A stretch of 64,000 nucleotides of DNA from Alcanivoracaceae bacterium. Lineage in GTDB: Bacteria; Pseudomonadota; Gammaproteobacteria; Xanthomonadales; Marinicellaceae. Below, in pieces: positions 368 through 43,114 of this stretch (positions are counted from its first letter, which is position 1; each line of letters starts with the position of its first letter). A program made the position numbers and the translations under genes. Where the stretch lies: positions 1 through 64,000 of the forward strand of contig JADGEI010000005.1 of the NCBI GenBank assembly GCA_016744455.1, written 5' to 3'. The notes beneath the pieces are model-generated. The model made no database searches. It was not told where the DNA came from and saw nothing but the letters and a program-made list of their open reading frames with translations.

Positions 368-1675
368 GTGTTAATATATGATATGCTGATGCAAAAAAAC
401 CCTTGGACAATTGAACTGTTATTTGGAGTAGTGTTTTTACTACTTTCTATGCTTACAGCATGGTTGACGTCTTATTGGGCATTGAGTTTTTTGATATGGG
501 CTTTAGTATATATTATTTGGAAATGGATTGAGCTTTATCATTTTTACGTGTGGTATGCATCAGGATCAGACTTGAAAAAAGTGCCACTTAGCTCTGGTAT
601 TTGGGAAGTTTTATCAAATAAAGTGATTAAATACAAAAAACTTAACAAAAAAACCTTAAAGAACAATGCATTCTTAATCCACCAATTTAACACAACAGCA
701 CAAGCTCTACCATATGCGACTTTGTTGCTGAATAGTAACTTTGAAATTAAGTGGTCAAACCAAGAATCTCAGAAACTATTTGGAATTGTAGAAAAAGACC
801 TGAACAGCAAAGTTGAAAACATAATACGTTCACCTAATTTTATAAAAATTTTAGGTAAAACTGATGAGGTTAATGATGTTAAAATAGATAATCCAACAGA
901 TTCCAGTAAAAAAATTCAAATAAGGTTGATAAAGCTTTCAAATAAACGCTATTTGTTGGTTGCCAGAGATATTAGTGAACAAGAATCGTTGCGAAAATCA
1001 CGTAAAGCTTTTGTCGCAAATGCTTCCCATGAACTACGCACACCTCTAACGGTAATTTCTGGGTATTTAGAAATGCTAAATAGTGCGAATGATTTGGATG
1101 AAATATGGAAACAACCCATTCATCAAGCACAAAACCAAGCCGTTAGAATGGAAAAAATAATTGATGATATGCTTAGACTTTCAAGCATGGAACATGGGCG
1201 GTATTTAGAACGTGACAACAGTAAAGCTGATGTACCTAAACTCCTAAATAGCGTGTTTAATCAAGTAAAAACAAGCACTTATGCTGAGAAACATGCACTT
1301 AAGGCTAATATAAATTCAGAATTAACTATTGACGTTGATACTGAAGAAATCACTAGCCTAGCGTTGAACCTGTTAAATAATGCCATCATCCATACACCTG
1401 CTGGCTCAACAGTTTCGCTTGAATGGTTTGCAGAAGGAACACAAGCACTTCTGAATGTCTGTGATAATGGTCAAGGTATAGAAGAGAAACATATAACGCA
1501 TTTAACTGAGCGATTTTACCGAGTTGATAATTCTAAAGACAAAAATACCAATTCCACAGGATTAGGTTTGGCTATAGTTAAGCAAATTTGTGACAACCAC
1601 AATGCTACACTTACTATCACAAGTGAAATCAATAAGGGTAGTTGTTTTAAAGTATATTTCCCAATTTTTAGTTAG
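368..1675 (+). CDS. phoR: phosphate regulon sensor histidine kinase PhoR
   Basis: This is a membrane sensor kinase, probably the partner of the PhoB encoded at 18.3 kb. Two hydrophobic segments lie in the first 60 residues with almost no periplasmic loop, as in PhoR. A PAS-like region follows (about 105-205). The HisKA H-box is NASHELRTPL, with the phosphoacceptor His at about residue 221. The HATPase domain has an N-box (NLLNNAIIHTP), DNGQGI, and GLGLAIVKQI. PhoR senses phosphate through PstSCAB/PhoU and phosphorylates PhoB. The frame opens with GTG at 368, but ATGs at 383 and 389 are equally plausible starts. Unusually, phoR is about 17 kb from phoB and separated from it by the TonB block. 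A possible Pho box lies upstream. Confidence 0.85.
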   Translation: MLIYDMLMQKNPWTIELLFGVVFLLLSMLTAWLTSYWALSFLIWALVYIIWKWIELYHFYVWYASGSDLKKVPLSSGIWEVLSNKVIKYKKLNKKTLKNNAFLIHQFNTTAQALPYATLLLNSNFEIKWSNQESQKLFGIVEKDLNSKVENIIRSPNFIKILGKTDEVNDVKIDNPTDSSKKIQIRLIKLSNKRYLLVARDISEQESLRKSRKAFVANASHELRTPLTVISGYLEMLNSANDLDEIWKQPIHQAQNQAVRMEKIIDDMLRLSSMEHGRYLERDNSKADVPKLLNSVFNQVKTSTYAEKHALKANINSELTIDVDTEEITSLALNLLNNAIIHTPAGSTVSLEWFAEGTQALLNVCDNGQGIEEKHITHLTERFYRVDNSKDKNTNSTGLGLAIVKQICDNHNATLTITSEINKGSCFKVYFPIFS

Positions 1676-2660: not shown

Positions 2661-4409
2661 TTAATCTAAGAATTCTGTCCATCCATTAGTCCAAGCATGA
2701 GACTCTGATTTAAAAGCACCTACATAGTTTACTTTATCAAAAAAAGCACTCCAAATGTTTGGATCCATATTTTTACCAGTTGGTGTATTAGCTGTTGGGT
2801 AAATATTATTTAGTGCAGGATCTGCCACTTCATTACCAGCCTGAGACTCAAAAAAAGATTGAACTGTAAAAGCATCACCTTCTTCTTCCTCGAAGTTTTG
2901 TGCACAGCTAATAACAGTATTTTCCATGGTTAAAAAACCAGTTAAGTTGTCTGTAGACCCTGCGGCTGCAAATGTAGCTTCAGAATCAATATCTAAACAT
3001 CTCTCGAACCCAGTGACTATTACATTAGTGAAGTTTGCACCAGTTCCACGCCTTAATACCATCCCTCTAGTGGTTTTATTGTCAGAATCAGCACCGATAA
3101 AAGTAGCATTTGCAATCATAGGTTGTGAGCGTGGAACCGCATCATTATTTAACTCATAGTTATCAGCTTCAATACCACGGTCTTTGTCGTTTGCTGCATT
3201 TTGATCTTGTTTTACCAGTACGTATTGTACTTTTCCATTCCAGCCATGTGTCCAATCTAGTGAATCATCTTTAATATTAGTTAAAACAATATGCTTCATA
3301 TTTACTGTACCACCAAATGCTTCAATACCATCATCTTCATTCGCATGAACTTGAACATAATCTATAATAGTACCATCACCTACACCTTGTAAAGCAATGC
3401 CGTTTAATTCATCTTCATCATTGATTCTGAAACCGCCGAACTGAACTCGAACATATTTTATAACCCCACTAGAGTCATGTGGTTGATCACCACCAAAATT
3501 ACCTGATGCACCTTCTCCTACGTCTTCGCATTGAGAAAAAGCAACACTTTCATCGCAAATGTTCAACGGGGCTTTACCATTAATAACTAAACCACCCCAA
3601 TTACCAGCGCCAGCAGATTCATCACTTGCATTGTATGGTCCAGTAAATACGATGGGTGATTTTGCGGTGCCTTCCGCAAAGAGTTTAGAGCCACGTTGAA
3701 TTGCTAAGAAGTCATTACCTGTCACTCCAAGTACACGTGTACCTGGTTCGATGGTTAAATTACTAGTGGCCCCGCCATCTTCGCCTACAAATACAGCACC
3801 TTGTAATACCCAATTTGTATCATTTGTCAATGTTTTGTTTCCAGTTAGTGTTCCTGATAAAACACAAGTCTTGGGTTGCGTTGATGTGGCTGCAAAATCG
3901 GGACATGTGGTAAATTCGGTTTGATAGGTACAAACTGATGAGTCATGATTCTGTCCAACAATATTGTCTATTGGTTCTAAATCAAAAGATACTCCCTCGC
4001 TAGCAAGAATATCGCTATTAATGCCTGTTAAGCTAACAGAAGCTTTTTGACAACTCTTAAAGTCTACATCCATTAATCCAAAATTTTCATTGACAGCATT
4101 AGAATCACCGTCAATAGAGCCACCTGAAGTGGTTTTTAGCTCAAATGATAAAATAGATTGCCCGGAAACAACAGGAGCATCTCCTGTCACCCAAAAAGCT
4201 GTACCATTATCATCATAGATAAAACCTGTCACAAACATGAGTCCTTTTTCATCTCCTGTTTTCAAGAACTCAAAACCCCAACCACTATTTGTTCCTGGTT
4301 TAAACCAAACTCCTTCAAACATTTTGTTATCGACGCTAATCGCTTGAGAAACTCCAGCTACAACCAGGGCACCAGTTAAAACAATACTTTTAAATTTTCC
4401 TACTTTCAT
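2661..4409 (-). CDS. secreted beta-helix-like protein, Pho-linked
   Basis: The protein has 582 residues and a signal peptide (about 1-23, ending VSQA). An N-terminal domain (about 25-165) carries WFKPGTNSGWGFEF. A long repetitive region (about 175-480) is rich in short beta-strand/turn patterns such as LTIEPGTRVLG, WGGLVINGKAP, IKYVRVQFGG and IDYVQVHANEDDGIEAFGG. This looks like a right-handed parallel beta-helix. The C-terminus reads YVGAFKSESHAWTNGWTEF. It is acidic and probably periplasmic or surface-exposed. I do not recognise an enzymatic motif. It is divergent from the TonB operon, and four PhoB-type half-sites on its own strand (4467-4506) precede it. It may therefore bind or process a phosphorus compound for the receptor at 9.6-12.8 kb, but this is inference. 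Confidence 0.75.
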   Translation of the reverse strand: MKVGKFKSIVLTGALVVAGVSQAISVDNKMFEGVWFKPGTNSGWGFEFLKTGDEKGLMFVTGFIYDDNGTAFWVTGDAPVVSGQSILSFELKTTSGGSIDGDSNAVNENFGLMDVDFKSCQKASVSLTGINSDILASEGVSFDLEPIDNIVGQNHDSSVCTYQTEFTTCPDFAATSTQPKTCVLSGTLTGNKTLTNDTNWVLQGAVFVGEDGGATSNLTIEPGTRVLGVTGNDFLAIQRGSKLFAEGTAKSPIVFTGPYNASDESAGAGNWGGLVINGKAPLNICDESVAFSQCEDVGEGASGNFGGDQPHDSSGVIKYVRVQFGGFRINDEDELNGIALQGVGDGTIIDYVQVHANEDDGIEAFGGTVNMKHIVLTNIKDDSLDWTHGWNGKVQYVLVKQDQNAANDKDRGIEADNYELNNDAVPRSQPMIANATFIGADSDNKTTRGMVLRRGTGANFTNVIVTGFERCLDIDSEATFAAAGSTDNLTGFLTMENTVISCAQNFEEEEGDAFTVQSFFESQAGNEVADPALNNIYPTANTPTGKNMDPNIWSAFFDKVNYVGAFKSESHAWTNGWTEFLD

Positions 4410-4466
4410 AAATAACCTCTAAATTAATAATACTTGCATTAAAAATTTGAATAATAATGTAAGTTT

Positions 4467-4506
4467 ATGACGCTTTAATGTCAAACAAATGAAATTTACA
4501 TGACAT
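4467..4506 (-). promoter_or_regulatory. Pho box array for the beta-helix gene
   Basis: Read on the minus strand, 7-bp half-sites recur every 11 bp: ATGTCAT (4500-4506), ATTTCAT (4489-4495), TTGACAT (4478-4484) and GCGTCAT (4467-4473). This matches the tandem PhoB box pattern (CTGTCAT repeats spaced by 4 bp). The array lies 58-97 bp before the start of the leftward gene at 4409. An AT-rich TTACATTATTAT stretch follows, where a -10 element would be expected. Confidence 0.75.
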
Positions 4507-4522
4507 ATATATCAATTTTGTG

Positions 4523-4584
4523 ATGACACATTATTGTCATTTAAATGTCACAATATTGTCATTGAAACTTAATTACAATGTCAT
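4523..4584 (+). promoter_or_regulatory. Pho box array for the TonB operon
   Basis: Half-sites in one 11-bp register are ATGACAC (4523), TTGTCAT (4534), ATGTCAC (4545), TTGTCAT (4556), a degenerate unit (4567), and ATGTCAT (4578-4584). Three consecutive near-consensus units make this the strongest PhoB-type array in the window. A -10-like ATAAAAT follows at about 4593, and the first gene starts at 4628. With the minus-strand array next door, both divergent promoters look PhoB-activated. Confidence 0.85.
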
Positions 4585-4627
4585 AATTCGGGGATAAAAT
4601 GCACCCTTTTATTCAGCTTAATATCCA

Positions 4628-5374
4628 ATGAAAATAATAAGACTTTTAACAATAATGTTGATTATGACATTTAATGTCGTAATGTCTCAAGATAATGACA
4701 AGTTAGCTAGAAACTTAATAAGTCTCCGTGGCGAAGTGGAAGATTTACAATCAGAACTAAAAATCCTTAAATCTGAAAATAAAAATTCATTGATTTATTT
4801 AAATACGCGTAAAACAGAATTACAGGCAAATATTGATAGAAAAAGCCTAAAATCTAAGCAGGCTCATGTAGAACATGAAAAATTAATAGAAAAAATTAAA
4901 TTATTAGGTGCTGATTCTGAACAATTAGTACCTCATGTTATTAAATTAATATTAAGTATTAAAAAAAACTTAAATACAGGTATACCATTCAAACAGAAAG
5001 AAAGGTTGTCTGTTGTCGAGGATATCGAGCGAAAACTTAATGCAAGAAAAGTTACATCACAATATGCAATAAACAGTTTATGGGCTTTCTTAGAAGATGA
5101 ACTGCGTTTAACTAGAGAGAATGCAATTTATTCTCAAACCATTCAAATAGATGGTGAGAATAAACTAGTTGAAATTGTGAAATTGGGAACAGTTATTATG
5201 TATTTTAAAACCCGTGATGATAAGTATGGTGTAGCTAAAAATATAGATGGATTATGGGATTATCAATTCTTTGAAGAGCAAAACAAACAAAAACAAATTG
5301 CCTTGTTATTTGATTCGCTAAAAAAACAAATTAGACAAGGTTATTTCTCCTTGCCTTTATCATTAAACCAATAA
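4628..5374 (+). CDS. DUF3450 periplasmic protein of a TonB2-type system
   Basis: The protein has 248 residues and a signal peptide (about 1-20). A coiled-coil region (about 25-95, many E/L/K heptads) is followed by a globular C-terminal part with IVKLGTVIMYFKTRDDKYGV. The length and layout fit the DUF3450 family, whose genes open TonB2-type operons (DUF3450-ttpC-exbB-exbD-tonB-TPR) in Vibrio and relatives. Its exact role is not established. It probably acts with the TtpC coiled coil in the periplasm. It is the first gene after the Pho box array, and the next gene begins 10 bp after its stop. Confidence 0.8.
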   Translation: MKIIRLLTIMLIMTFNVVMSQDNDKLARNLISLRGEVEDLQSELKILKSENKNSLIYLNTRKTELQANIDRKSLKSKQAHVEHEKLIEKIKLLGADSEQLVPHVIKLILSIKKNLNTGIPFKQKERLSVVEDIERKLNARKVTSQYAINSLWAFLEDELRLTRENAIYSQTIQIDGENKLVEIVKLGTVIMYFKTRDDKYGVAKNIDGLWDYQFFEEQNKQKQIALLFDSLKKQIRQGYFSLPLSLNQ

Positions 5375-5384
5375 GGAGAAGGTG

Positions 5385-6758
5385 ATGAAAAATATTATAA
5401 TACTTGTTTTTGGAATTTTTTTCACACTCAGTTTGCTAGCACAAGTTGCGCCTGAAGAAAAAACAACAATACCTGAAATCAATCCTAATAAATCAGCTGA
5501 AGATTTAAATAAAGCATACCAAAAAGAATATGCGTTTTTAACAGCTCAAATTAAAAGTATTAAAACACGTACACAAGATTACATAAAATCCTCTACAAAA
5601 GAGAAAAAAAGTCTCAGCAAACAAATTAATAATTTGGAATCCAAGCTGTTAGACTTAGATAATCAAATCAATCAAATAGAAGATGATATTTTCACGCTAC
5701 AAAGAAACTCTGAGTCGGCTAGTGACAACAATAACTTGATTGAATCAACCATAACTCAAGCTAAGTCGACAATGTCTGAGTATGATTTCGAAGGTTTTAC
5801 TGATGAATCTAACATAGAAGATATAAATAAAATCGAAAGTTTAATTCTTTTTGCCATTAAAATTGTTGAAAAATACTCCAGCGTTAGTAAAGAAGAAGGT
5901 TCCTTTTTTCTTCAGAATGGACAGGAAGTTAAAGGAGAAATTATAAAAATTGGTAACATTGCATCATATGGTCATTCGCAACAAGGATCTGGATCTTTAG
6001 CACCAGCAGGTGAGAATAAATTTAAGGTGTGGCGTAATGAAGATTCAACAATCGTTGCTGAAATTTTTAACGGTAAAGCGCAAGAATCTTTGCCTATATT
6101 TTTATACGAATCGAGTATAAAATCAATTGTACAAAAGAAGAAAAAGACGATTAGAAGTGTTATAGAGTCTGGTGGAATAATTGCATGGATTATTGTGTTT
6201 TTGGGTTTGTTTGCTTTGATATTAATAGTATTACGTATTTGGTTTTTGAGAAAATCATCATCAAGCACAGAAAAAATTCTTAAAAAAATCGTTCATAATA
6301 TTGAGAACGATGATATGGAACATGCTATGCGGATAGCTAGCCACAAACATAGCTCAAGTGGACGTGTTATGTACGCTGTATTACGTAATATTTCAAGAGA
6401 TAGAGAGCATATTGAAGATATAGTTTCTGAGTCAATATTGCATGAATCAGGGCAGTTAAATCGTTTTGGTTCCTTAATCATGGTTGTCGCTACAGTTTCT
6501 CCACTTCTAGGCTTACTTGGAACAGTGACTGGCATGATTTCAACCTTTGATATAATTACTGAATTTGGCACAGGTGATCCAAAATTATTATCAGAAGGAA
6601 TTTCTATTGCTTTGGTGACTACTGAGGTTGGGTTGGCAGTAGCTATTCCTGCTTTAGTTTTTGGTAATGTTTTATCTGGTTGGGCCGAACGTATTAAAGA
6701 TGATATGGAAAAGGCAGCACTTCGTGTAATCAACGTGTATAAAAAATTACAAGAATAA
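5385..6758 (+). CDS. ttpC: TtpC-like MotA/TolQ/ExbB proton channel protein
   Basis: This is a long ExbB relative. After a signal peptide (about 1-20) comes a periplasmic coiled coil (about 35-120), then a central domain (about 160-250). One membrane helix lies at about 265-285. The C-terminal MotA/TolQ/ExbB domain has LGLLGTVTGMISTFDIITEFG and TEVGLAVAIPALVFGNVL. TtpC is an extra component required by the Vibrio TonB2 complex. ATG 5385 sits six bases after AAGGAG and is preferred to the GTG at 5382. The next gene follows with no gap. Confidence 0.88.
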   Translation: MKNIIILVFGIFFTLSLLAQVAPEEKTTIPEINPNKSAEDLNKAYQKEYAFLTAQIKSIKTRTQDYIKSSTKEKKSLSKQINNLESKLLDLDNQINQIEDDIFTLQRNSESASDNNNLIESTITQAKSTMSEYDFEGFTDESNIEDINKIESLILFAIKIVEKYSSVSKEEGSFFLQNGQEVKGEIIKIGNIASYGHSQQGSGSLAPAGENKFKVWRNEDSTIVAEIFNGKAQESLPIFLYESSIKSIVQKKKKTIRSVIESGGIIAWIIVFLGLFALILIVLRIWFLRKSSSSTEKILKKIVHNIENDDMEHAMRIASHKHSSSGRVMYAVLRNISRDREHIEDIVSESILHESGQLNRFGSLIMVVATVSPLLGLLGTVTGMISTFDIITEFGTGDPKLLSEGISIALVTTEVGLAVAIPALVFGNVLSGWAERIKDDMEKAALRVINVYKKLQE

Positions 6759-7388
6759 ATGATGAGTATTTGGCAGCAATCATTAGATTATCTTAGCTCA
6801 GGAGGTTTTGTGATGCCTCCTTTAGTTATTGGTACATGTGCCTTATGGTGGATGCTTGGTTATCGAATGGTCGCCTTAAAAAGAGGTTCTCAACGTTCTG
6901 TTAGGGTCTTGGTTTATCGTTTTTTAAAAGGAAAAATGCCAAGCGGTAATGGTGTTTTAGTCAGGGCACTATATAAAAGCATGGAGTTAAAAAATCACAA
7001 GTTAGACAATCTAAGGCGTTATCTTGATGATGTATTGGCTGAAGAGTACTCTGAAATAAAGAAATACAAAGTCTTTATTTCAACTATTGTAATTGTGGCT
7101 TCACTTTTAGGTTTGCTTGGCACTGTTTCTGGAATGATTGAAACATTCGAATCTTTGGGTGATATGTCCTTATTTTCTCAATCAGGAGGTATAGCTGGTG
7201 GCATCTCTCAGGCATTAATAACAACACAAATGGGCTTGGCGGTTTCGATTCCTGGCCTGATAGTCAATGGCTTTTTAGATAAAAAACAAAAGAGTTTAGA
7301 AATTGAAATGGCACAACTCAAAGATTTACTGTGTGCTCCTATTCCTGGCGAAGACGAATTAATCAAGACTCAAGATAGTCTACAATAA
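6759..7388 (+). CDS. exbB: ExbB-type proton channel subunit
   Basis: The protein has 209 residues. A first membrane helix lies near the N-terminus (PPLVIGTCALWWMLGYRM), and two more helices form the MotA/TolQ/ExbB core (VFISTIVIVASLLGLLGTVSGMIETF and ITTQMGLAVSIPGLIVNGFL). It uses the proton gradient with ExbD to energise TonB in the inner membrane. The short length matches ExbB2 of TonB2 systems. The start is ATG at 6759 or 6762, immediately after the ttpC stop, and the genes are probably translationally coupled. Confidence 0.88.
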   Translation: MMSIWQQSLDYLSSGGFVMPPLVIGTCALWWMLGYRMVALKRGSQRSVRVLVYRFLKGKMPSGNGVLVRALYKSMELKNHKLDNLRRYLDDVLAEEYSEIKKYKVFISTIVIVASLLGLLGTVSGMIETFESLGDMSLFSQSGGIAGGISQALITTQMGLAVSIPGLIVNGFLDKKQKSLEIEMAQLKDLLCAPIPGEDELIKTQDSLQ

Positions 7389-7403
7389 ATAGAGAAGAGA
7401 ATT

Positions 7404-7814
7404 ATGCGATTTAGAGAAAAAAAAGAAGTTGTAGAAGATTTGAATATTTCACCACTTATTGACATGGTTTTTATTTTATTGATTTTTTTTATGGTGTCTA
7501 CTACCTTCGTTAAAGATATGAAACTGGACTTGGATCGACCATCAGCATCATCAGCAAGTACAGCTTCAACCAAAGCAGTACGTGTCTATATTGACAATCA
7601 AGGAGAGGTATATATAGATGGTGAAAGCATTAGAATTTGGGTTTTACAATCGCGATTAAGAGATGTGCTTAAAAGCAAGACTCCAAAATCAGTCTTAGTG
7701 GTAACAGATGTGAATGTACCATCTGGTAAATTGGTTGAAGTTGTCGATCAAGCGCGTTTAGCAGGTGCAAGTGATGTTGGTGTTGCTACATCAAAAGAGG
7801 TGGGAGCAGGTTAA
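7404..7814 (+). CDS. exbD: ExbD-type TonB-energising subunit
   Basis: The protein has 136 residues. It begins with a short cytosolic stretch and the ExbD/TolR signature EDLNISPLIDMVFILLIFFM, whose membrane-embedded Asp (PLIDMVF) is the proton-carrying residue. A periplasmic domain follows (VYIDNQGEVYIDG...VVTDVNVPSGKLVEVVDQARLAG). It partners with the ExbB and TtpC proteins encoded just upstream. Its stop is directly followed by the tonB start codon. Confidence 0.9.
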   Translation: MRFREKKEVVEDLNISPLIDMVFILLIFFMVSTTFVKDMKLDLDRPSASSASTASTKAVRVYIDNQGEVYIDGESIRIWVLQSRLRDVLKSKTPKSVLVVTDVNVPSGKLVEVVDQARLAGASDVGVATSKEVGAG

Positions 7815-8471
7815 ATGATAACCGATAATAAAGCTCCTGACAGATGGTTGCGATTTTTTAGTGCATTTTTTTTAATGTTGTTAGGTACAGCATTGGTTTT
7901 GAGTACTGTTATCTTAATTAATAATAAGAGAATAAAAGATGACAAAAATACCGATAAAGTAGGTACTGAAATAAAGTTTAACCGCAAAAAGCCGAAAAAC
8001 AAGCAAGTGGTTAAGAGACAGCGCCCCAAACCTAAACCAAAGAAAGCTCGCCGAGCTCCACCTGCACCAATTTTAGGGTTGAATAGCAGTTTGACAGGAG
8101 TTGATTTAGCCCTTCCTGAGTTTTCACTAGATGGCTTAAACGAATTAGATAGTGATATATTAGGGAATGCATCTGGAGTTGTCATGACAGATGACATGGT
8201 AGATGCCTCACCTAAAGCTGTTTATCAAGCACCTGCAAACTATCCAGCTAGGGCTCGAGCAAAAGGAGAAGAAGGTTATGTTGTGTTTTCCTTGTTAATT
8301 GGTATCACTGGAGAAATTGAACAAATGAAAATTATCGATTCAAACCCTGAAGGAGTATTTGATGATGCAGCCACACAATCTATGCAAAGTTGGAAGTTTG
8401 AACCGGCTCAATACCAAGGTAAGCCAGTAAAAACTTGGGCAAAACAACGAATAAGATTCGATTTAAGCTAA
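7815..8471 (+). CDS. tonB: TonB-family energy transducer
   Basis: The protein has 218 residues, with one N-terminal membrane anchor (about 13-35). A basic, proline-containing spacer has KKPKNKQ and RPKPKPKKARRAPPAP. The C-terminal TonB domain (about 140-218) has APANYPARARAKGEEGYVVFSLLI and WKFEPAQYQGKPVKTW. It carries energy from the ExbB/ExbD complex to the TonB box of outer-membrane receptors. The short periplasmic spacer resembles TonB2 more than TonB1. It lies in the putative PhoB-controlled operon. Confidence 0.9.
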   Translation: MITDNKAPDRWLRFFSAFFLMLLGTALVLSTVILINNKRIKDDKNTDKVGTEIKFNRKKPKNKQVVKRQRPKPKPKKARRAPPAPILGLNSSLTGVDLALPEFSLDGLNELDSDILGNASGVVMTDDMVDASPKAVYQAPANYPARARAKGEEGYVVFSLLIGITGEIEQMKIIDSNPEGVFDDAATQSMQSWKFEPAQYQGKPVKTWAKQRIRFDLS

Positions 8472-9622
8472 TGAAAAAAATATTGCAAATTATACTAATA
8501 GCGTTCTTCCTGGTTAGTTCTATAGCTCATGCTAAAGCGTCAAAAAAAGACGAAATCAATTACCTTGATTTAGCCTCTCTTATGCTAAAAGATAATAATT
8601 ATGAGCGGGCTAAAATAGCCTTGTCGAAAGTTAATTTAAATGAAGAAAGCATTGATAAACAACGTTTTTATATCGTATCTGCCTTATTATTTGTTGGTAC
8701 CAAGGACAATGAAAAAACAATTTCAATGATTCAAAAAGCTAGAGAACTAGGAGAAGTTGACCCGGTTATGAATGTGTATTTAGCACAAGCTGCTTATGCT
8801 AATAATGACTACCTATTGACAATCGAAGCCTTAGCAGCTGCAGGAAAAGGCGTAGAAAAAATACCTGCAATTTACCTCATGCGCTCGCAGAGTTATTGGA
8901 ACCTATTACAATACGATAATGCTATAGCCACATTAGAACAGGCAGCTAAGATTTTCCCTGAGAATAAGAGTTTTCCACGACGTAAGGTTTTTTATTATAT
9001 TGAACTTGGTTATAACAAACAAGCTGTAATACTAGGTCAAAAATATTTGAAAAACTTTAAAGGGCAACGGGAGGACTATATCGCCATTGGAAATGCCTTA
9101 CGAATGTCGGGTGATAATGAAACTGCATTGATGTTTTTAGAAAACGCTCTGCTTAAATTTCCACAAGATGAAAACATAGCTAAATCATTAGCGGCCATTT
9201 ATATTCAAAATGATAAGTATTTTACAGCAGCAAAAATTATTCATGATGCAGCTTTGCTTAATCCTCAATTGATTAAAGAGGCTGCTGAACTCTATCGTAG
9301 AGCAGGCTCCAATTATATGGCTTTAACACTTAATGGCATGATAAGTGATCAAAAAGAGAAGCTTAAACAGCGTATGGCATTAATGTTACAGCTAGAAAAT
9401 TTTGAACAAGTCGCTGCCATGGAAGATAACCTTAAACGTGTGCATCTACAAAATGATGAAAATACGAAATATGCTATGGCATATGCTTTTTTTAAAACGG
9501 GTAATTTCAAAAAAACCAATGAATATTTAAGTCTAATCACCGAAGAAAGGAATTTTAAAAAAGCAATAGAACTAAGAAAAATCATGGCAGAATGCCAATT
9601 AGAATCGTGGCTTTGCCAATAA
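8471..9622 (+). CDS. TPR-repeat periplasmic protein of the TonB operon
   Basis: The protein has about 383 residues, with a signal peptide (about 1-22, ending AHAKA) and a solenoid of tetratricopeptide-like repeats along its length (for example YWNLLQYDNAIATLEQAAKIFP and ALRMSGDNETALMFLENALLKFP). The family closes TonB2 operons in Vibrio-type systems. A scaffolding role in the periplasm is likely but not shown here. ATG 8471 overlaps the tonB stop as TAATG. It is preferred to the upstream in-frame ATG at 8435, which would bury the start in tonB and precede the signal peptide. Confidence 0.8.
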   Translation: MKKILQIILIAFFLVSSIAHAKASKKDEINYLDLASLMLKDNNYERAKIALSKVNLNEESIDKQRFYIVSALLFVGTKDNEKTISMIQKARELGEVDPVMNVYLAQAAYANNDYLLTIEALAAAGKGVEKIPAIYLMRSQSYWNLLQYDNAIATLEQAAKIFPENKSFPRRKVFYYIELGYNKQAVILGQKYLKNFKGQREDYIAIGNALRMSGDNETALMFLENALLKFPQDENIAKSLAAIYIQNDKYFTAAKIIHDAALLNPQLIKEAAELYRRAGSNYMALTLNGMISDQKEKLKQRMALMLQLENFEQVAAMEDNLKRVHLQNDENTKYAMAYAFFKTGNFKKTNEYLSLITEERNFKKAIELRKIMAECQLESWLCQ

Positions 9623-9635
9623 AAAAGAGCATATA

Positions 9636-12600
9636 ATGAAAAAAAACATCTTTTTATTACTGTTATTATCACATGTAGCCTTAGCCAAAAATGAAGCCAA
9701 AGTTTCGATCTTTGTCTTTTTTAAAGGTGAGCCTTTGAGCCATGTTGATATTTATGAAAATCATCAGAAAATTGCTACAACTGACAGCTATGGAAATGCC
9801 GTAATAGTATTAAAGGCTGGGAAACATCCAATTCTACTAAAAAGCCAAGAAGATAAAATATATTCTCATGAGTTGCAGTTGGCTGAAAATGAAATCATAC
9901 AATTGTTAGTGGATATAAAGGTCAAAAACCAAAAACCAACTGTTGACGTAGAAACTTCAAAGTTGAAAGAGGAGGTGAACTCTGTAAATCAGGGAGAAAA
10001 CCCACAAGAAAAAAGTGTCGTGACCACAATTGATGGAAATGTTGTTTCAGTAGAAGACAATAAGGGTATAGCTGGTGCGCGTGTTTATATCAGTGGTGTC
10101 AGTGATAATTTAATTACTGATGCTGATGGAAGTTTCAGTACTAAGTTGCCATCTGGTACTTATAGTATTAGTGTGTTACATGCTCAATTTAACAGTGTTA
10201 TTAAGCCCAATATTGAAATCAGTGCTCAAGGTTTAAAACAATTTAAAATAGAACTTACACCATCAGGTACAGAATTGCCTGAATTTGTTGTGATTGTACC
10301 TTTTATTGAAGGGTCTTTAGCATCTGTTTTGGAAGAGCGTAAAAATAACAACTCGGTTGCTAATTATCTAAGTATGGAGCAAATATCAAAATCTGGAGAC
10401 TCGGATGCTGCAGGAGCACTTAAACGGGTGACAGGTTTAACTTTAGTTGATGGAAAATTTATTTTTGTGAGAGGTTTGGGCGAGCGTTATTCTAGTACTT
10501 TGCTTAACGGAGCAAACCTACCTAGTCCAGATCCAACACGTCGAGTTGTTCCTTTGGATTTGTTTCCAACTAGTGTTGTAAAAAGTATCGAAGTGCAAAA
10601 AGGCTATTCGGCTAAGTTGCCAGCAGAATTTGGTGGAGGGTCAGTCACTTTAAAAACCATTAGTATTCCAAATGAAAACTTCTTAAAAGTTGGTGTATCA
10701 TATGCTAATAATTCGCAAACCACAGGTAAAGATGGCCTCAGTTACTTCGGAGGAGGCAAGGACTGGTCAGGATATGACGATGGTACACGAGCAATACCTC
10801 CGCTTTTATTAAATGCTATTGCAAATGGCACCGAATTAAGGCCAAGCAACCCATTTATTGCTGGTGGGTTTGATCCTGAAGTGCTTGAAGCTATTGGTGA
10901 GTCATTATCTAATACTTATAATTTAGATAATGAAACTGTTGATCCTGGTTTAGGGTTGAATTTGGCCGGAGGTGCGCGTCATACTTTGGACTCTGGTACG
11001 GTGCTAGGGTTCTCTTCAGCCATTGAGTACGGTTCAGATTATCAAACACGTTCAGAATTACGTCGGGACTACATTGTTTCTTCAGGTTCAAACTTAGCTT
11101 TGGATAGTGAAGAAGTATCAAATACCACCAACAGAAATATAAATTTGAGTGGTTTTTTAACCACGGGTATAGAGTTTGCTGAAAACAATAAAATTTCTGT
11201 TAATTATATGTTATTACGAAATACACAAAACTTTAATGAAATTGCTGAAGGATTTAATGAAGATTTGGGTAACTCTAGAAGAATTTTTGAATTACGATGG
11301 ACAGAACGAGAACTTGCTTCATTTCAAACTTATGGAGAACATGTTTTTAATGATATTGGAGGTTTGCAACTTAACTGGCAATACACAGATTCAACTGCTA
11401 ATTTTGATGAGCCTGATAATAGAATTTACCGGTATGATCAACGAGAAGAGGGTGACTTTATTTTTTCTACACGCAATGATAGTAACTCAAGGGTGTGGCG
11501 AGAACTCGAAGATGTAAGTAATGATATTCATTATGATTTGTCTTTTCCACTGAGCCCATCCAACAACCACAACATACTTTTTACTGGTGGCCAAAGTTGG
11601 GTGAAAAAAGATAGAAACTCAGACATAAGACGGTTTGTTTTTGAAGATGTCGGATCATTAGTAAATCAAGTCAATCGAAATGACGGATTAGAAAACATTC
11701 TTTCGCCTGAATTTATTGATGCCAATGGTTATCAACTCATTGAAGTGACGCGTGCAACGGATAACTATTTTGCAAATTTAGACATAAAGTCTAGTTATTT
11801 TGGGATTGATTATGCTTACAAAGAGCTTTTTAAAATGTCAGTAGGTGTACGAAAAGAAGATTTTTCACAATCAGTAACAACTTTTAGTCTTTTTGATGCC
11901 AATGCCTCACCAATTGTGGTCTCGCTAGAAGATTCTAGCTATTATCCTGCCTTTTCATCTACATTATTTTTAAACGGAAACAACCAATTTAGATTTAATT
12001 ATTCTCAGACTTCAACAAGGCCAGATTTTAAGGAACTTTCTCCAGCTCAGTTTAAAGATCCAGTACTTAACCGAGATATTATCGGTAATCCAGACTTGGT
12101 AACAGGGCAAATAAAGCATTACGACCTGCGTTGGGACAAGTATTTTACTCCTGGAGAATTTGTCTCTGTCAGCTTATTTTATAAACAGTTTATCAACCCA
12201 ATTGAGTTAATTATTTTGCCGGGTTCTTCGCGAATAATTAGTTTTGATAATGCAGAATTTGCAACAAATTCTGGTATAGAACTTGAGTTATACAAAGATT
12301 TTTCATTTGTGAGCCATTGGTTAAAAAGCAAATTTTGGTCAGACCTTTATGTCAATGCTAATTACGCTTATATTAATTCAGAAATAACCCTTGGTACAGA
12401 TCGTCCAGGCGGACAAACCAACAATGTACGTCCCTTACAAGGTCAATCTCCTTATGTTGCTAACTTTCAATTGGGTTATGACAATAAAGAAAAGGACATA
12501 AGTACTTCTTTGTTGTTTAATGTTTTTGGAGAAAGAATCTCTGAAGCAGGAACTAGTGGTAAACCAGATGTTTATCAACAATCGTTTAACCAATTAGATT

Positions 12601-12758
12601 TTGTCTATTCACAAAGATTATTCGATAAATTTAAATTTTCATTAAAAGTTAAAAACTTACTTGATGATGAGGTTTTATTCTTAGTAGGTGACGAAACTGC
12701 ACGCTCTTACACTAAAGGGCGAAGTGTAAGTTTAGGTGTTAGCTATAATATTTATTAA
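9636..12758 (+). CDS. TonB-dependent outer membrane receptor, Pho-linked
   Basis: The protein has 1040 residues and a signal peptide (about 1-18). Two carboxypeptidase-regulatory-like Ig folds lie in tandem at about 20-95 and 125-205. The plug domain follows (LASVLEERKNNNSVANYLSMEQI, FVRGLGERYSSTLLNGANLPSPDP, IEVQKGYSAKLPAEFGGG), then a 22-strand-type barrel ending in an aromatic-rich C-terminus (SLGVSYNIY). It is the last gene of the TonB operon, 13 bp after the TPR gene, and pstS follows. The context suggests uptake of a phosphorus-containing ligand, but the substrate cannot be read from sequence. The double N-terminal domain makes it larger than classic siderophore receptors. Confidence 0.85.
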   Translation: MKKNIFLLLLLSHVALAKNEAKVSIFVFFKGEPLSHVDIYENHQKIATTDSYGNAVIVLKAGKHPILLKSQEDKIYSHELQLAENEIIQLLVDIKVKNQKPTVDVETSKLKEEVNSVNQGENPQEKSVVTTIDGNVVSVEDNKGIAGARVYISGVSDNLITDADGSFSTKLPSGTYSISVLHAQFNSVIKPNIEISAQGLKQFKIELTPSGTELPEFVVIVPFIEGSLASVLEERKNNNSVANYLSMEQISKSGDSDAAGALKRVTGLTLVDGKFIFVRGLGERYSSTLLNGANLPSPDPTRRVVPLDLFPTSVVKSIEVQKGYSAKLPAEFGGGSVTLKTISIPNENFLKVGVSYANNSQTTGKDGLSYFGGGKDWSGYDDGTRAIPPLLLNAIANGTELRPSNPFIAGGFDPEVLEAIGESLSNTYNLDNETVDPGLGLNLAGGARHTLDSGTVLGFSSAIEYGSDYQTRSELRRDYIVSSGSNLALDSEEVSNTTNRNINLSGFLTTGIEFAENNKISVNYMLLRNTQNFNEIAEGFNEDLGNSRRIFELRWTERELASFQTYGEHVFNDIGGLQLNWQYTDSTANFDEPDNRIYRYDQREEGDFIFSTRNDSNSRVWRELEDVSNDIHYDLSFPLSPSNNHNILFTGGQSWVKKDRNSDIRRFVFEDVGSLVNQVNRNDGLENILSPEFIDANGYQLIEVTRATDNYFANLDIKSSYFGIDYAYKELFKMSVGVRKEDFSQSVTTFSLFDANASPIVVSLEDSSYYPAFSSTLFLNGNNQFRFNYSQTSTRPDFKELSPAQFKDPVLNRDIIGNPDLVTGQIKHYDLRWDKYFTPGEFVSVSLFYKQFINPIELIILPGSSRIISFDNAEFATNSGIELELYKDFSFVSHWLKSKFWSDLYVNANYAYINSEITLGTDRPGGQTNNVRPLQGQSPYVANFQLGYDNKEKDISTSLLFNVFGERISEAGTSGKPDVYQQSFNQLDFVYSQRLFDKFKFSLKVKNLLDDEVLFLVGDETARSYTKGRSVSLGVSYNIY

Positions 12759-12913: not shown

Positions 12914-12931
12914 ATGTCATAAAACTGTCAC
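12914..12931 (+). promoter_or_regulatory. Pho box upstream of pstS
   Basis: ATGTCAT (12914-12920), AAAA, CTGTCAC (12925-12931) is nearly identical to the canonical two-repeat PhoB box. It ends 51 bp before the pstS start. An additional inverted TTGTCAC lies at 12896-12902. Confidence 0.88.
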
Positions 12932-12982: not shown

Positions 12983-14020
12983 ATGAAAAATTTAAAAACT
13001 TTAATAGCAATAGCTGCACTTACGACAAGCCTAACTGCCTTATCGGCTGGCCGGGATTACATTTCAGTTGTTGGTTCATCAACGGTGTATCCTTTTGCGA
13101 CAGTGGTAGCGGAAAAATTTGGCAAATCAACAGATTTTAAAACACCAAAAATTGAATCAACAGGTACAGGCGGTGGCATGAAATTGTTTTGCAAAAGTAT
13201 CGACATTAATACTGCTGATATGACAAATGCTTCTCGTAGAATGAAAAGTAGCGAATTTAAAATGTGTCAAGAAAATGGTGTAAAGGGTATAGTTGAAGTA
13301 CTAATTGGGTATGATGGTATTGTTGTTGCCAATGATATTAAATCACATACTTTTGCATTAACACGTAAAGATTTGTTTTTGGCTCTAGCAAAAGAAGTGC
13401 CTAGTGAAAAAGATGGTGAATTAATCGTTAATCCAAATAAAACTTGGCATGATGTAAGAGCAGAACTGCCTAATGTTAAGATTGAAGTTTTAGGACCACC
13501 ACCAACATCGGGTACACGAGATGCTTTTGTTGAACTGGCAATGGAAGGTGGTTGCAAACAATTCCCTTGGATAAAAAGCACTAAGAAAAAAGATAAAACA
13601 AAATATAAATCAATTTGTCATACCATTCGTGAAGATGGTGCTTATATTGAAGCAGGCGAAAATGATAACTTAATCATCCAAAAACTACAAAAGAACCCTG
13701 ATGCTTTAGGTATATTTGGGTTCTCATTTTTAGATCAAAATTCAGATTTGGTTAAAGGGGCGGCTATTGATGGATCTGCACCAGAATTTGAGTCGATTGC
13801 TGATGGTTCTTACCCTGTTTCACGTCCTTTGTACTTTTATGTAAAAAAAGCACATGTTGGTAAAATCCCTGGAATGAGTGAGTTTTTAGAAGAGTTTACC
13901 AGTCACAAGGCTATGGGTGAAGAAGGTTATTTAATTGATAAAGGGTTGATTCCATTAGATGAAGAAAAATACCAAAAAGTATTTTCAGATGTTAAAAACT
14001 TATCTAATTTATCCCTATAA
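12983..14020 (+). CDS. pstS: periplasmic phosphate-binding protein PstS
   Basis: The protein has 345 residues and a signal peptide (about 1-22). Phosphate-binding motifs are VVGSSTVYPFATVVAEKF near the N-terminus, ESTGTGGGMKLFC, DMTNASRRM, and LGPPPTSGTRDAFVELAMEGGC. It delivers phosphate to the PstC/PstA permease. A Pho box precedes it, and pstC-pstA-pstB-phoU-phoB follow. A strong hairpin sits between pstS and pstC and may keep pstS mRNA more abundant than the rest. Confidence 0.93.
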   Translation: MKNLKTLIAIAALTTSLTALSAGRDYISVVGSSTVYPFATVVAEKFGKSTDFKTPKIESTGTGGGMKLFCKSIDINTADMTNASRRMKSSEFKMCQENGVKGIVEVLIGYDGIVVANDIKSHTFALTRKDLFLALAKEVPSEKDGELIVNPNKTWHDVRAELPNVKIEVLGPPPTSGTRDAFVELAMEGGCKQFPWIKSTKKKDKTKYKSICHTIREDGAYIEAGENDNLIIQKLQKNPDALGIFGFSFLDQNSDLVKGAAIDGSAPEFESIADGSYPVSRPLYFYVKKAHVGKIPGMSEFLEEFTSHKAMGEEGYLIDKGLIPLDEEKYQKVFSDVKNLSNLSL

Positions 14021-14026
14021 ACTATA

Positions 14027-14077
14027 GAGTTGTTCCTTTCTCTTGAGTGGATTTTGTTCAAGGGAAAGGGATAACTC
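14027..14077 (+). promoter_or_regulatory. long hairpin between pstS and pstC
   Basis: Arms 14027-14046 and 14058-14077 pair over 20 nt with three mismatch or G-U positions, and the loop is 11 nt. No T-run follows, so it is not a classical terminator. Its place between a binding-protein gene and its permease genes suits an RNA-stabilising or partial-termination element that raises pstS over pstCAB. Confidence 0.6.
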
Positions 14078-14089
14078 AGTATAAAACTC

Positions 14090-15472
14090 ATGAGTCTATC
14101 AGCAATAATTTTTATCCTGTGTTTATTAGCAGCTTTCAACTTTTTTATCAAAAAGCAAAAGATATATGCTCTACAACTTAGTCAGGGAACTAATAATAAG
14201 GTCAAGCAAACATTGCCTAAATACTTTGGCTACGTGGCTGCATTATGGTCATTAATTCCTGCTTTGCTTGTTTTGTTAGTAATTGAAATAATTGATGAAC
14301 CTTTAATAAAAAACAATTTAACTCAATACATGCAAGCAGAAAATATCGCAACAGCGGATAATTATGATTTATACCTGAATGAAATTAAAAACATCGATAT
14401 TAATCAAATAAATAGTATTGATGAAACAAAGAAGAAGATTCATACACACTATTATAACTTACAAAGTATTGCTAGAAATGCTAAAGCCGTTACAGTATTG
14501 GCGCTAGCTGTTTTGATGGCATTATTTGGTTTAAAAAAAGTAAAAAGCCAAACACCTGCGCGTATTTACTTTGAAAAATTTATAGAAATAATTCTCTTAA
14601 TAGCAGCATCAATTGCTATATTAACTACAGTTGGTATAGTTTTATCGGTATTATTTGAATCGATTAGGTTTTTTGGTGAAATACCAATCGTAGACTTTAT
14701 GTTTGGACTAGATTGGTCACCACAAACAGCTATCCGAAGTGATCAAGTCGGCTCTTCTGCTGCATTTGGAGCTGTACCATTATTTATTGGGACGATGCTT
14801 ATTTCTACTGTTGCTTTATTTATAGCCGTGCCACTTGGATTGATGAGTGCCATTTTTTTATCTGAATATGCATCAAGTAAGTTTCGATCTATTGCTAAAC
14901 CAGTATTAGAAATTTTGGCTGGTATTCCAACAGTTGTCTACGGGTTTTTTGCAGCTCTTACAGTTGCTCCATTTATTCGTAGTTTTGGAGAGTCTTTAGG
15001 TTTGTCTGTCGCTTCAGAGAGTGCTCTTGCCGCTGGTTTGGTAATGGGAATAATGATAATTCCATTTGTTTCATCTTTAGCAGATGATGTTATATCAGCA
15101 GTTCCAAACGCTATGCGTGAAGGCTCACTGGGGTTGGGTGCGACAAAGTCAGAAACAATTGTTAAAGTCTTAATACCAGCTGCGCTTCCAGGCATTGTTG
15201 GGGGTGTTTTACTTGCTGCTTCAAGAGCTATTGGTGAGACAATGATTGTCGTTATGGCAGCTGGGTTGGCAGCTAATTTAACCGTCAACCCACTCAATGC
15301 AGTTACTACAGTAACCGTTCAAATTGTTACCTTATTAACAGGTGATCAGGAGTTCAATAGTGCTAAAACGCTGGCAGCTTTTGCTTTAGGATTAATGTTG
15401 TTTATCACCACCTTAGTTTTGAATGTTATTGCATTGCACGTTGTACGTAAATACCGAGAGCAATATGAGTAA
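14090..15472 (+). CDS. pstC: phosphate ABC transporter permease PstC
   Basis: The protein has 460 residues, longer than the roughly 320 of E. coli PstC. It has an N-terminal extension with two or three extra membrane helices and a soluble segment (to about residue 150). The usual permease core follows. The ABC-permease 'EAA' loop reads MREGSLGLGATKSETIVKVLIPAALPG. The extended form is common in marine gammaproteobacteria. It forms the inner-membrane channel with PstA. Its end overlaps the pstA start by 8 bp. Confidence 0.9.
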   Translation: MSLSAIIFILCLLAAFNFFIKKQKIYALQLSQGTNNKVKQTLPKYFGYVAALWSLIPALLVLLVIEIIDEPLIKNNLTQYMQAENIATADNYDLYLNEIKNIDINQINSIDETKKKIHTHYYNLQSIARNAKAVTVLALAVLMALFGLKKVKSQTPARIYFEKFIEIILLIAASIAILTTVGIVLSVLFESIRFFGEIPIVDFMFGLDWSPQTAIRSDQVGSSAAFGAVPLFIGTMLISTVALFIAVPLGLMSAIFLSEYASSKFRSIAKPVLEILAGIPTVVYGFFAALTVAPFIRSFGESLGLSVASESALAAGLVMGIMIIPFVSSLADDVISAVPNAMREGSLGLGATKSETIVKVLIPAALPGIVGGVLLAASRAIGETMIVVMAAGLAANLTVNPLNAVTTVTVQIVTLLTGDQEFNSAKTLAAFALGLMLFITTLVLNVIALHVVRKYREQYE

Positions 15473-16748
15473 AAATAATAACACCTCAAAAATAGAAAAA
15501 AGCTTAAAGAGACGTTACTTAAAAGAAAACATCTTCAAAGCCTCTGGTTATGCTTCTATTGGCATTGCATTCATGTTTTTAGTAGTTTTGTTGGCTGATA
15601 TAGGCATTAAAGCTATGCCCGCATTTATTCAAACTCAAATTGAATTAAAACTAGATTTAAGCTATGAATCATTGCAGCTAAACCCAGAAAGTTCAGTTGC
15701 AGAGATTAAAAAAGTTGATTTTCGCCAAGTCATTCGTAAAGCTTTAAGGAAACAGTTCCCTGATGTTAAAAAAAGGAAAGAGAAAAAACAATTATATTCA
15801 CTAATTAGTAGTGGAGCTGAATATCAACTTCGAGATATGGTATTAGAAAATAAAGAATTAATTGGTAACGAGCATAGCTTTAATCTATATGCAGATGATG
15901 ATGTTGATGCTCTTATTAAAGGCACAATAAATCGAAAATTAGCGCAATCGGAAAGGCGTGTAAAAGATTTTAAAATTTCTTTGATTGAAGTTTTAGAAAA
16001 GAATAATCAAGTGAGTAAAAAATTTAATTGGACATTTTTTAGTAGTGGTGATTCGCGCGAGCCAGAATTAGCAGGTATTAAAGGAGCAATTATGGGCTCA
16101 ATCTACACTATATTGGTGACCTTGATGTTGTCATTTCCAGTGGCAGTCGCAGCAGCTATTTACTTAGAAGAATTTGCACCAAAAAATCGTATGATTGATT
16201 TCATCGAGATAAATATTAATAATTTGGCAGCAGTGCCTTCCATTGTTTTTGGTTTACTAGGCTTAGCGGTTTTTATTAACTTCTTTTCTTTGCCAAGGTC
16301 TGCACCTATAGTTGGCGGAATTGTCTTATCATTGATGACATTACCAACAATTATTATTGCTTCTCGTTCAGCAATTAAAGCTGTTCCACCTTCATTGCGT
16401 GAAGCCGCTCTTGGATTGGGAGCTTCAAAAATGCAAACGGTATTTCATCATGTATTTCCCGCAGCATTACCAGGCATATTAACCGGCACCATAATTGGTA
16501 TGGCACAAGCCTTAGGAGAAACTGCTCCGCTATTGATGATTGGAATGGTAGCATTCATAGTTGATATTCCGCAAACTATTGTAGATCCAGCCACAGTTTT
16601 ACCTATACAAGTATTTTTATGGGCAGATTCTCCAGAAAGAGGATTTTTAGAAAAAACTTCAGCAGCTATCTTAGTGCTAATAGGTTTTTTGATAATAATG
16701 AACGCATTAGCCATCTATTTGCGTAAGAAATTTGAGAAGAAATGGTAA
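15465..16748 (+). CDS. pstA: phosphate ABC transporter permease PstA
   Basis: The protein has about 427 residues. It has one N-terminal helix, then a hydrophilic periplasmic insertion (about 40-190, rich in K/E), then five permease helices. The EAA loop reads [27 protein letters not shown]. It is longer than E. coli PstA (about 300), matching the extended PstC here. ATG 15465 overlaps the pstC stop by 8 bp and is preferred to an upstream in-frame start at 15423 inside pstC. Confidence 0.9.
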
Positions 16749-16749
16749 T

Positions 16750-17604
16750 ATGAATACACAAGCTTTACAAAACAATTTGATGAAAGATAAGTCTAATGAG
16801 GCTATACTAGCTGAGCACAGCAAAACCATTGGCCAACCATTTTGTGATAACCCAAAAATAAGCACACGTGACGTTAATGTTTATTATGCTGAAAATCATG
16901 CAATTCAAGATGTTTCATTGGATATGGGTCAGAATGAAGTTATTGCATTAATTGGACCTTCTGGTTGCGGTAAATCAACTTATTTACGCTGCCTCAACCG
17001 TATGAATGACACTATCGATAGTTGTAGAGTTAGTGGAAAATTTATCATTGACGACATAGATATATATGCTAAATCACAGGATCCTGTGTTATTACGTGCT
17101 CGGGTTGGTATGGTTTTTCAAAAACCTAACCCTTTTCCAAAATCTATCTATGATAATGTTGCATATGGGCCAAAAATTCATGGTTTAACAAGCAACAAAG
17201 CAGAATTAGATGATTTGGTTGAAGAATCATTAAGTAAAGCTGGATTATTTAATGAAGTCAAGGATCGATTAGGTGATTCCGGAACAGGTTTGTCAGGTGG
17301 CCAACAACAACGTTTATGTATTGCACGTACTATAGCAGTTCAACCAGAGGTTATTCTAATGGATGAACCGGCTTCTGCTTTAGACCCTATTGCGACGGCT
17401 AAGGTTGAAGAATTAATTAACGAATTGAGGAAAAATTACACCATTGTAATCGTTACTCATTCAATGCAACAAGCTGCACGCGTATCACAAAGAACAGCTT
17501 ATTTTCATTTGGGCAAGTTAATAGAAGTTGGTGAAACAAAACAGATTTTCACCAACCCACTACATGAATTAACTGAACGGTATATAACCGGTAGATTTGG
17601 ATAA
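16750..17604 (+). CDS. pstB: phosphate ABC transporter ATPase PstB
   Basis: The protein has about 284 residues. Walker A is GPSGCGKST, the Q-loop region is [12 protein letters not shown], the ABC signature is LSGGQQQR, Walker B is [13 protein letters not shown], and the switch His is in VTHSMQQA. It powers phosphate import through PstC/PstA and takes part in PhoU/PhoR signalling. ATG 16750 is one base after the pstA stop. A start at 16732 would lie inside pstA. Confidence 0.95.
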
Positions 17605-17608
17605 TACT

Positions 17609-18319
17609 ATGGAAAATTTAGATTTTAATCAACACACATCAAAAAAATACAATCAAGAACTCGAAAAAATCAGAAGCTCATTGCTTGTAATGGGAGGGAT
17701 GGTTGAAAAGCAAGTAAAAAAAGCAGTCGAAGCCTTGGTAGAAGGTAAAAGCAAGATGGCAAAAAAAGTCATAAAAAAGGATTTAGGTGTTAATGCTATG
17801 GAGGTCCAAATTGATGAAGAGTGCACGCAAATTATTGCTAAAAGACAACCTGCTGCCAGTGATTTACGTTTGGTCTACTCTATAATTAAGAGCATAACAG
17901 ATTTTGAAAGAATTGGTGACGAAGCCGAAAAAATTGCAAAGTGTGCTAGTTTCCTTATTGATGAAAATTATTTAGGTAATTATTCTCACGAATTTATGAA
18001 ACTTTACCAGCTAGTAGCAATAAATTTAAATCAAACGTTAAATGCTTTAGCTCGATTGGATGCTGAGGAGGCTTTGACTATTGCAAAGAAAGATGAAATA
18101 GTTGATTTAGCCTTTGAACGTCTTAATAATGATATTATAAGAAATATGACAACTGAACCGACAAAACTCAACTTATTATTACGTTTAAGTTGGAGTGCAA
18201 AAGCATTGGAGAAGATAGGTGACCATACAACTAATATCTGTGAATATATTATATACCTAGTGAAAGGTAAAGATGTACGTCATTTGGATATTAATACCAT
18301 TAAAGAAGAGTATTTTTAA
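17609..18319 (+). CDS. phoU: phosphate signalling regulator PhoU
   Basis: The protein has about 236 residues and is all-helical, with two PhoU repeats. The conserved metal-site segments are KSITDFERIGDEAEKIA and WSAKALEKIGDHTTNICEYIIY. It is the negative regulator that links Pst transport to PhoR kinase inhibition. The start is ATG 17609, four bases past the pstB stop. The phoB start follows one base after its stop, giving an uncommon pst-phoU-phoB linkage. Confidence 0.93.
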   Translation: MENLDFNQHTSKKYNQELEKIRSSLLVMGGMVEKQVKKAVEALVEGKSKMAKKVIKKDLGVNAMEVQIDEECTQIIAKRQPAASDLRLVYSIIKSITDFERIGDEAEKIAKCASFLIDENYLGNYSHEFMKLYQLVAINLNQTLNALARLDAEEALTIAKKDEIVDLAFERLNNDIIRNMTTEPTKLNLLLRLSWSAKALEKIGDHTTNICEYIIYLVKGKDVRHLDINTIKEEYF

Positions 18320-18320
18320 T

Positions 18321-43050: not shown

Positions 43051-43096
43051 AAGTGTAATAGTTATTAATTTAAAAATGCATTTTACTAGGTGGATT

Positions 43097-43114
43097 ATGA
43101 CAAAATAATGACAA
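43097..43114 (-). promoter_or_regulatory. Pho box upstream of the porin gene
   Basis: Read on the minus strand, TTGTCAT (43108-43114), TATT, TTGTCAT (43097-43103). The two half-sites are identical and each differs from CTGTCAT at one base. The box ends 46 bp before the start codon. Confidence 0.85.

Follow-up and report, generated by a model that had tools for sequence, protein, structure and literature searches.

Back-to-back ladders of PhoB half-sites predicted to drive a divergent gene pair beside the phosphate genes of an Alcanivoracaceae bacterium

What regulates two transcription units that diverge from one short spacer between the phosphate genes of this bacterium, and why should that spacer hold so many copies of a PhoB half-site? 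The window analyzed here is a 64,000-nucleotide stretch of a 3.62 Mb genome (47 contigs). Within it, a spacer of 218 bp (4410-4627; 76% A+T) parts a gene read leftward (2661-4409, minus strand) from an operon read rightward, and carries two arrays of TGTCAT-like hexamers that point away from each other. From its sequence, we consider it highly likely that the spacer is a two-sided PhoB operator with both divergent promoters activated by PhoB; binding, activation, co-induction and an effect on occupancy are what we infer from this arrangement.

The right ladder, read directly, has six positions pointing right at exact 11-bp steps, one of them degenerate. Half-sites were scored with a matrix built from 59 E. 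coli PhoB ChIP-seq sites (Table 1 of PMC10294691); the median E. coli half-site scores 6.6, and the background is nearly the same. The promoter-proximal position 1 (TGTCAT, 4579-4584, plus strand; score 8.7) replaces the -35 element, and the predicted -10 hexamer, TAAAAT (4595-4600, plus strand), follows exactly 10 bp past it, a geometry shared by relatives. Position 2 (CTTAAT, 4568-4573, plus strand) is the degenerate one: at 1.6 it scores less than the 10th percentile for half-sites of E. coli (2.26). Beyond it on the plus strand are position 3 (TGTCAT, 4557-4562; 8.7), position 4 (TGTCAC, 4546-4551; 9.4) and position 5 (TGTCAT, 4535-4540; 8.7). The exact TGTCAY triple at 11-bp steps in this ladder is the sole instance in the 3.62-Mb genome. 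The outermost position 6 (TGACAC, 4524-4529, plus strand) scores 6.4, and 8.7 when read on the minus strand, where it is a perfect TGTCAT (4523-4528); its orientation is thus ambiguous in this genome. Sister genomes have AGTCAC or AGTCAT at this site, pointing right. We considered the site as a member of the left ladder and rejected that assignment, because it is 1 bp off the left register and points right in the sister genomes.

The left ladder has four half-sites pointing left, with every step 11 bp when read directly. From the outside inward, all on the minus strand, these are TGTCAT (4500-4505; 8.7 with the same matrix), TTTCAT (4489-4494; 5.2), TGACAT (4478-4483; 5.7), which is TGTCAT in three sister genomes, and the promoter-proximal CGTCAT (4467-4472; 7.1). 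The last of these replaces the -35 element and is followed exactly 10 bp further on by the predicted -10 hexamer TATTAT (4451-4456, minus strand). The original prediction of four left and six right half-sites at a strict 11 bp is thereby confirmed, with its coordinates right to within a base. Among 33 genomes of the family (own included), 19 have a strong match to the DUF3450 protein that heads the right operon (E < 1e-50) and 16 retain the whole spacer; G005, G027 and G032 were left out of the spacer set owing to contig breaks. All 16 keep the four-position left ladder and a TANNAT hexamer, some of the positions being weak variants. In this count the ladder was anchored on the two outer half-sites, and TANNAT was then read 10 bp after the fourth position. 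One spacer (L095, genome G003) has, by eye, about 113 extra bases between the left -10 and the left gene, with both ladders intact. Also by eye, the extra bases look inverted-repeat-like, as if a small mobile repeat had inserted.

In a spacer that is 76% A+T, such a pattern might have arisen by chance, an explanation to which we give practically no weight. At a period of 11 the right ladder sums to 30.4 and the left to 18.0, and sums stay at or below 8.7 when the period is set to 7-10 or 12-16. The original prediction had named a weight-matrix comparison with shuffled sequence as its check, and scores no better than those of random AT-rich spacers as its refutation. That refutation fails: over 4,000 dinucleotide shuffles, maxima averaged 5.4 and peaked at 13.0, so that none reached either ladder sum. 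Elsewhere in the window, over 1,174 tiles, the top sum was 13.7 (the pstS promoter) and the next 13.0 (near 43 kb). When TGTCAY was simply counted, 20,000 dinucleotide-preserving shuffles never gave the right-hand score for three to six sites, nor did any of them match both ladders jointly. Each side therefore has at least two TGTCAY-like direct repeats at 11 bp and fits an experimental PhoB matrix better than chance, and the conservation in 16 genomes likewise argues against a chance origin.

Searches of whole genomes with IUPAC patterns were less informative. With two mismatches allowed, a loose pair plus -10 pattern was powerless to discriminate (217 matches versus 228 in the reversed control); at zero mismatch it found pstS alone, and neither search yields a list of the Pho regulon. 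Exact TGTMAY triples at 11 bp gave 10 matches versus 2 in the reversed control (9/33 family genomes). In three genomes (G003:C91, L156; G004:C17, L154; G009:C91, L153) an identical perfect TGTMAY triple occurs between the receptor gene and the next gene, and it points against both flanking genes, as a reversed PhoB site. By eye, the other triples are beside pit-like genes and point against them, or are near unplaced genes. Since triples often point against their neighbours, a triple by itself is no marker of a Pho promoter. Also seen was a GC-richer TGTCAT/TGTCAG ladder with 11-bp steps (G000:C31:42125-42163, minus strand; L010, L012); downstream of it is an ORF of 481 aa whose start resembles an export signal.

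Phosphate genes flank the spacer on both sides. The first gene of the right operon (4628-5374, plus strand) encodes a DUF3450 protein (PF11932, E 2.7e-21), and the remainder (5382-12758, plus strand) encodes, by Pfam, MotA/TolQ/ExbB, ExbB, ExbD, TonB, a TPR protein and a TonB-dependent receptor. A TIGR01782 match in this part falls below its cut-off. To the right of the operon are pstS, pstC, pstA, pstB, phoU and phoB (12983-19007), of which pstC, pstA and pstB were identified by eye from translations. The pstS gene is preceded by an ordinary PhoB box of two half-sites, TGTCAT-TGTCAC (12915-12931, plus strand), 10 bp before TAAACT. To the left is phoR (368-1675, plus strand), for which PF11808 is above its cut-off and TIGR02966 scores 332.1 bits against a cut-off of 334.2. 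The phoR and phoB genes (368-1675 and 18318-19007) are thus about 16.6 kb apart, with no phoBR operon and with the TonB operon and pstSCAB-phoU between them. Short ORFs occur at 1912-2505, between phoR and the left gene, and one resembles what is left of an IS110-type transposase, with a weak Pfam match (E 0.065). Elsewhere in the window, the stretch 41587-43114 holds a gene for a phosphate-selective porin O/P on the minus strand (PF07396, E 3.9e-17), with a PhoB-like pair upstream of it at 43097-43114 and a -10-like TAAAAT 11 bp away, not 10.

The left gene encodes a protein of 582 aa with, by eye, a signal-peptide-like start, and no match to it was found in Pfam, NCBIfam or PDB sequences. 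Structure prediction gave a weak model (mean pLDDT 62) in which an N-terminal beta barrel and a body resembling a beta helix can be seen at low confidence. Its fold matches are poor: one reached E <= 0.001, and TM-scores over the query were no higher than 0.24 among the 50 matches listed. Every one of the 16 family genomes whose spacer is intact has this gene divergent from the DUF3450 gene, as does G050. In other families of the order, its relative is often on the same strand about 8-9 kb past the DUF3450 gene (e.g., G058, G040, G045, G049), where the operon would end. The left ladder thus serves a gene that may be co-transcribed with the operon in relatives. Given this linkage, the left protein may help in phosphorus capture. 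Both the left gene and the DUF3450 gene are linked to phosphate genes and have PhoB sites conserved across species, as would be expected of members of the Pho regulon.

Which regulator binds the ladders? Direct repeats at 10-11 bp are common in the OmpR/PhoB family, and the genome encodes several full-length regulators of this type, so another member might be the binder in place of PhoB. We regard this as very unlikely, because the half-sites fit the E. coli PhoB matrix and phoB, phoR and the pst genes adjoin. The presumed binder (18318-19007, plus strand; 48% identity to E. coli PhoB) scores 294.3-294.9 bits against TIGR02154, narrowly under the curated cut-off of 296.2; it is nevertheless the best match in the genome, and the next (201 bits) is 93 bits weaker. 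In the alignment it retains equivalents of T194, V197, R201, R203, T217 and R219, with Leu in place of R200. According to PMC3264566, T194, V197, R201 and R219 contact bases and R203 and T217 contact the backbone. We call this regulator PhoB because of its TIGR02154 rank, synteny and contact residues. The arrays are, very probably, PhoB operators driving both genes. The original prediction, that PhoB binds here and controls both transcripts, is well supported by the matrix, the 10-bp spacing to the -10, conservation, the phosphate neighbours and the kept contact residues.

The distance from the ladders to the -10 hexamers was compared across 17 spacers, those of the 16 family genomes plus G050. 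Two half-sites in register and then, 10 bp on, TANNNT were found in 15/17 on the right, 15/17 on the left and 13/17 on both sides. At gaps of 5-9 and 11-15 bp each count was 0-2 of 17, and shuffled spacers gave a mean of 0.01/17 per side. The strict pair rule misses the right promoters of our genome and of G025 and the left promoters of G022 and G050; in our genome it does so because position 2 is degenerate. A right half-site, 10 bp and TANNNT are present in 17/17, although these strings were hand-picked by eye and are no independent test. A second set, drawn with slightly laxer cut-offs, comprised 13 DUF3450 loci, including the right promoter of G027 and leaving out L054 (G005), again because of a contig break. 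The pair and 10-bp gap were present in 10 of these 13, with two to four in-register half-sites, and in 9 of the 12 beyond the first 17 (L053, which is G050, is shared). The 12 new loci are G027, a distant MAG (L111) and ten from other families of the order; three of the 13 had no match, including L111, for which 85 bases were read. Occurrence of the pair and gap in other families suggests that the PhoB promoter of the DUF3450 operon probably predates the family.

Under phosphate starvation, PhoR would phosphorylate PhoB, and PhoB~P dimers would bind in head-to-tail order along each ladder, using its 11-bp half-sites. At the inner end of either ladder a half-site is predicted to stand in for the -35 element, with the -10 exactly 10 bp further on, a position in which the last PhoB could hold sigma70. 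The left gene and the DUF3450-ExbB-TonB-receptor operon would then be switched on together. As for the additional half-sites further out, their most likely effect is a higher local concentration of PhoB and a higher occupancy. It is plausible that loading is cooperative and induction sharp, as originally predicted. It has also to be considered that one ladder, or its overlap with the upstream DNA of the other promoter, represses, such that the arrays tune or cap expression at high PhoB~P. There is precedent in the E. coli phoB promoter, where a weak PhoB site near the -10 is reported to repress at high PhoB (PMC6194859), and several half-sites here can be read on the opposite strand too (e.g., at 4523 and 4572 on the minus strand). 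This seems improbable to us, as neither -10 is overlapped by a half-site of at least 5 bits and both ladders are in an activating position.

The two ladders differ in how far their length varies among relatives. On the right, most Marinicella-like genomes have two positions, as does G001; our genome, G003, G004 and G009 have six, and G007 has seven. G025 has four, three of them good. An extra (third or fifth) site in G028, G020, G016 and G025 was not counted, being inside the 10-bp gap beside the -10. In a tree of the left protein (17 rows, midpoint root, with G050 on a very long branch), the five genomes with at least six right positions form one clade (97/93), with the two-site G001 as sister. 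The simplest reading is that extra right positions were gained once in the clade with six or seven sites and, partly and separately, in G025. In G007, two adjacent 11-mers are identical, as if one 11-bp unit had been exactly doubled; in such A-rich DNA the fit to unit doubling is suggestive only.

These changes bear on the function of the outer sites. Possibly only the promoter-proximal pair of each ladder works, and the outer sites are non-functional by-products of 11-bp slippage in AT-rich DNA. Most relatives have two half-sites at the right promoter, a unit is exactly doubled in G007, and the degenerate position varies, being position 2 in our genome and position 5 in G003, G004 and G009. 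Against this are the retention of four left positions, however weak some may be, in all 16 genomes, and the TGTCAY-like core of the outer right sites, which is kept in five species of one clade even where letters differ. On balance we think it rather unlikely that the outer sites are without function.

Spacing between the ladders is also patterned. The gap (4506-4523) sets the facing outer half-sites 24 bp apart, start to start, and the same outer spacing is seen by eye in G003, G004, G009 and G007, in agreement with the measured distances. From the outer end of the left ladder to the proximal right half-site, the distances in 16 genomes are 50, 61, 62 (three genomes), 63 (three), 71, 72, 73 (four), 84 and 94 bases. 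Modulo 11, all 16 fall at 5-8. With a period of 11, the 16 values give a resultant length of 0.90 and the nine distinct values one of 0.89, which none of 20,000 draws of random distinct distances (50-94) reached, in a test made post hoc on related genomes with only four or five independent large changes. A period of 10.5-10.75 bp fits nearly as well as 11 bp. Doubling of 11-bp units explains part of the pattern. Genomes with two right half-sites are also at 50, 61-63 and 71-72, however, and for these unit slippage offers no ready explanation. Changes in the distance between the ladders seem confined to steps of about 11 bases. We tentatively raise the possibility, itself unlikely, that the two ladders form one phase-locked composite operator holding PhoB clusters in a fixed rotational relation, with spacer length altered only in full turns (about 11 bp each) and the right ladder extended one unit at a time. 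The reason might be that PhoB clusters on the two sides touch, or have polymerase contacts in common, across the gap.

Through the predicted two-sided operator, phosphate starvation in marine relatives of Marinicella is linked to a TonB-type uptake operon that is uncharacterised and to a protein without a known family. The relatives also offer PhoB promoters that range naturally from two to seven in-register half-sites, a series suited to measuring what ladder length, and the phase between divergent promoters, do.

Several known systems resemble parts of this arrangement. According to a 2015 review (PMC4415409), the PHO box is two 11-nt repeats, multiple PHO boxes occur at ugp and Streptomyces has complex operators; operators with four repeat units are reported in PMC7866108. 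For KdpE, a related regulator, PMC3264566 describes independent binding of half-sites by the isolated DNA-binding domain. The original prediction held that the arrays are longer than the usual two-repeat box, and this is so relative to the pstS promoter of the same genome (12915-12947), which follows the same plan of TGTCAT-TGTCAC, 10 bp and TAAACT but has two half-sites only. Long ladders in themselves have precedents: E. coli pstS has four in-register 11-bp positions and a 10-bp gap to TATTTT, and ugpB has seven, five of them good. The same 10-bp gap, to TATAGT, is found at E. coli phoA. Among E. coli promoters, seven of which were compared, the ladder sum is related only weakly, and not significantly, to the ChIP score (Spearman 0.49, p = 0.27), and phnC is a counter-example. 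Streptomyces PhoP operators, like those here, are described as having more than two 11-nt direct repeat units, some poorly conserved (PMC7866108, PMC4415409), but the regulator is a different one, PhoP, with the consensus GTTCACC (PMC4415409). A search of largely open-access literature listed no title on such a divergent ladder pair, and no listed paper names both DUF3450 and PhoB; one names both Marinicella and PhoB, and one on pho boxes in divergent or spaced arrangements concerns ytfK. The right ladder sums to 30.4, compared with 20.3 and 21.0 for E. coli pstS and ugpB. Those two promoters are one-sided, with no facing ladder in the 250 bp scored, whereas two ladders are placed back to back here. 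The kind of operator is already known; what goes further is how long the right ladder is, how it grew in one clade, and the spacing modulo 11.
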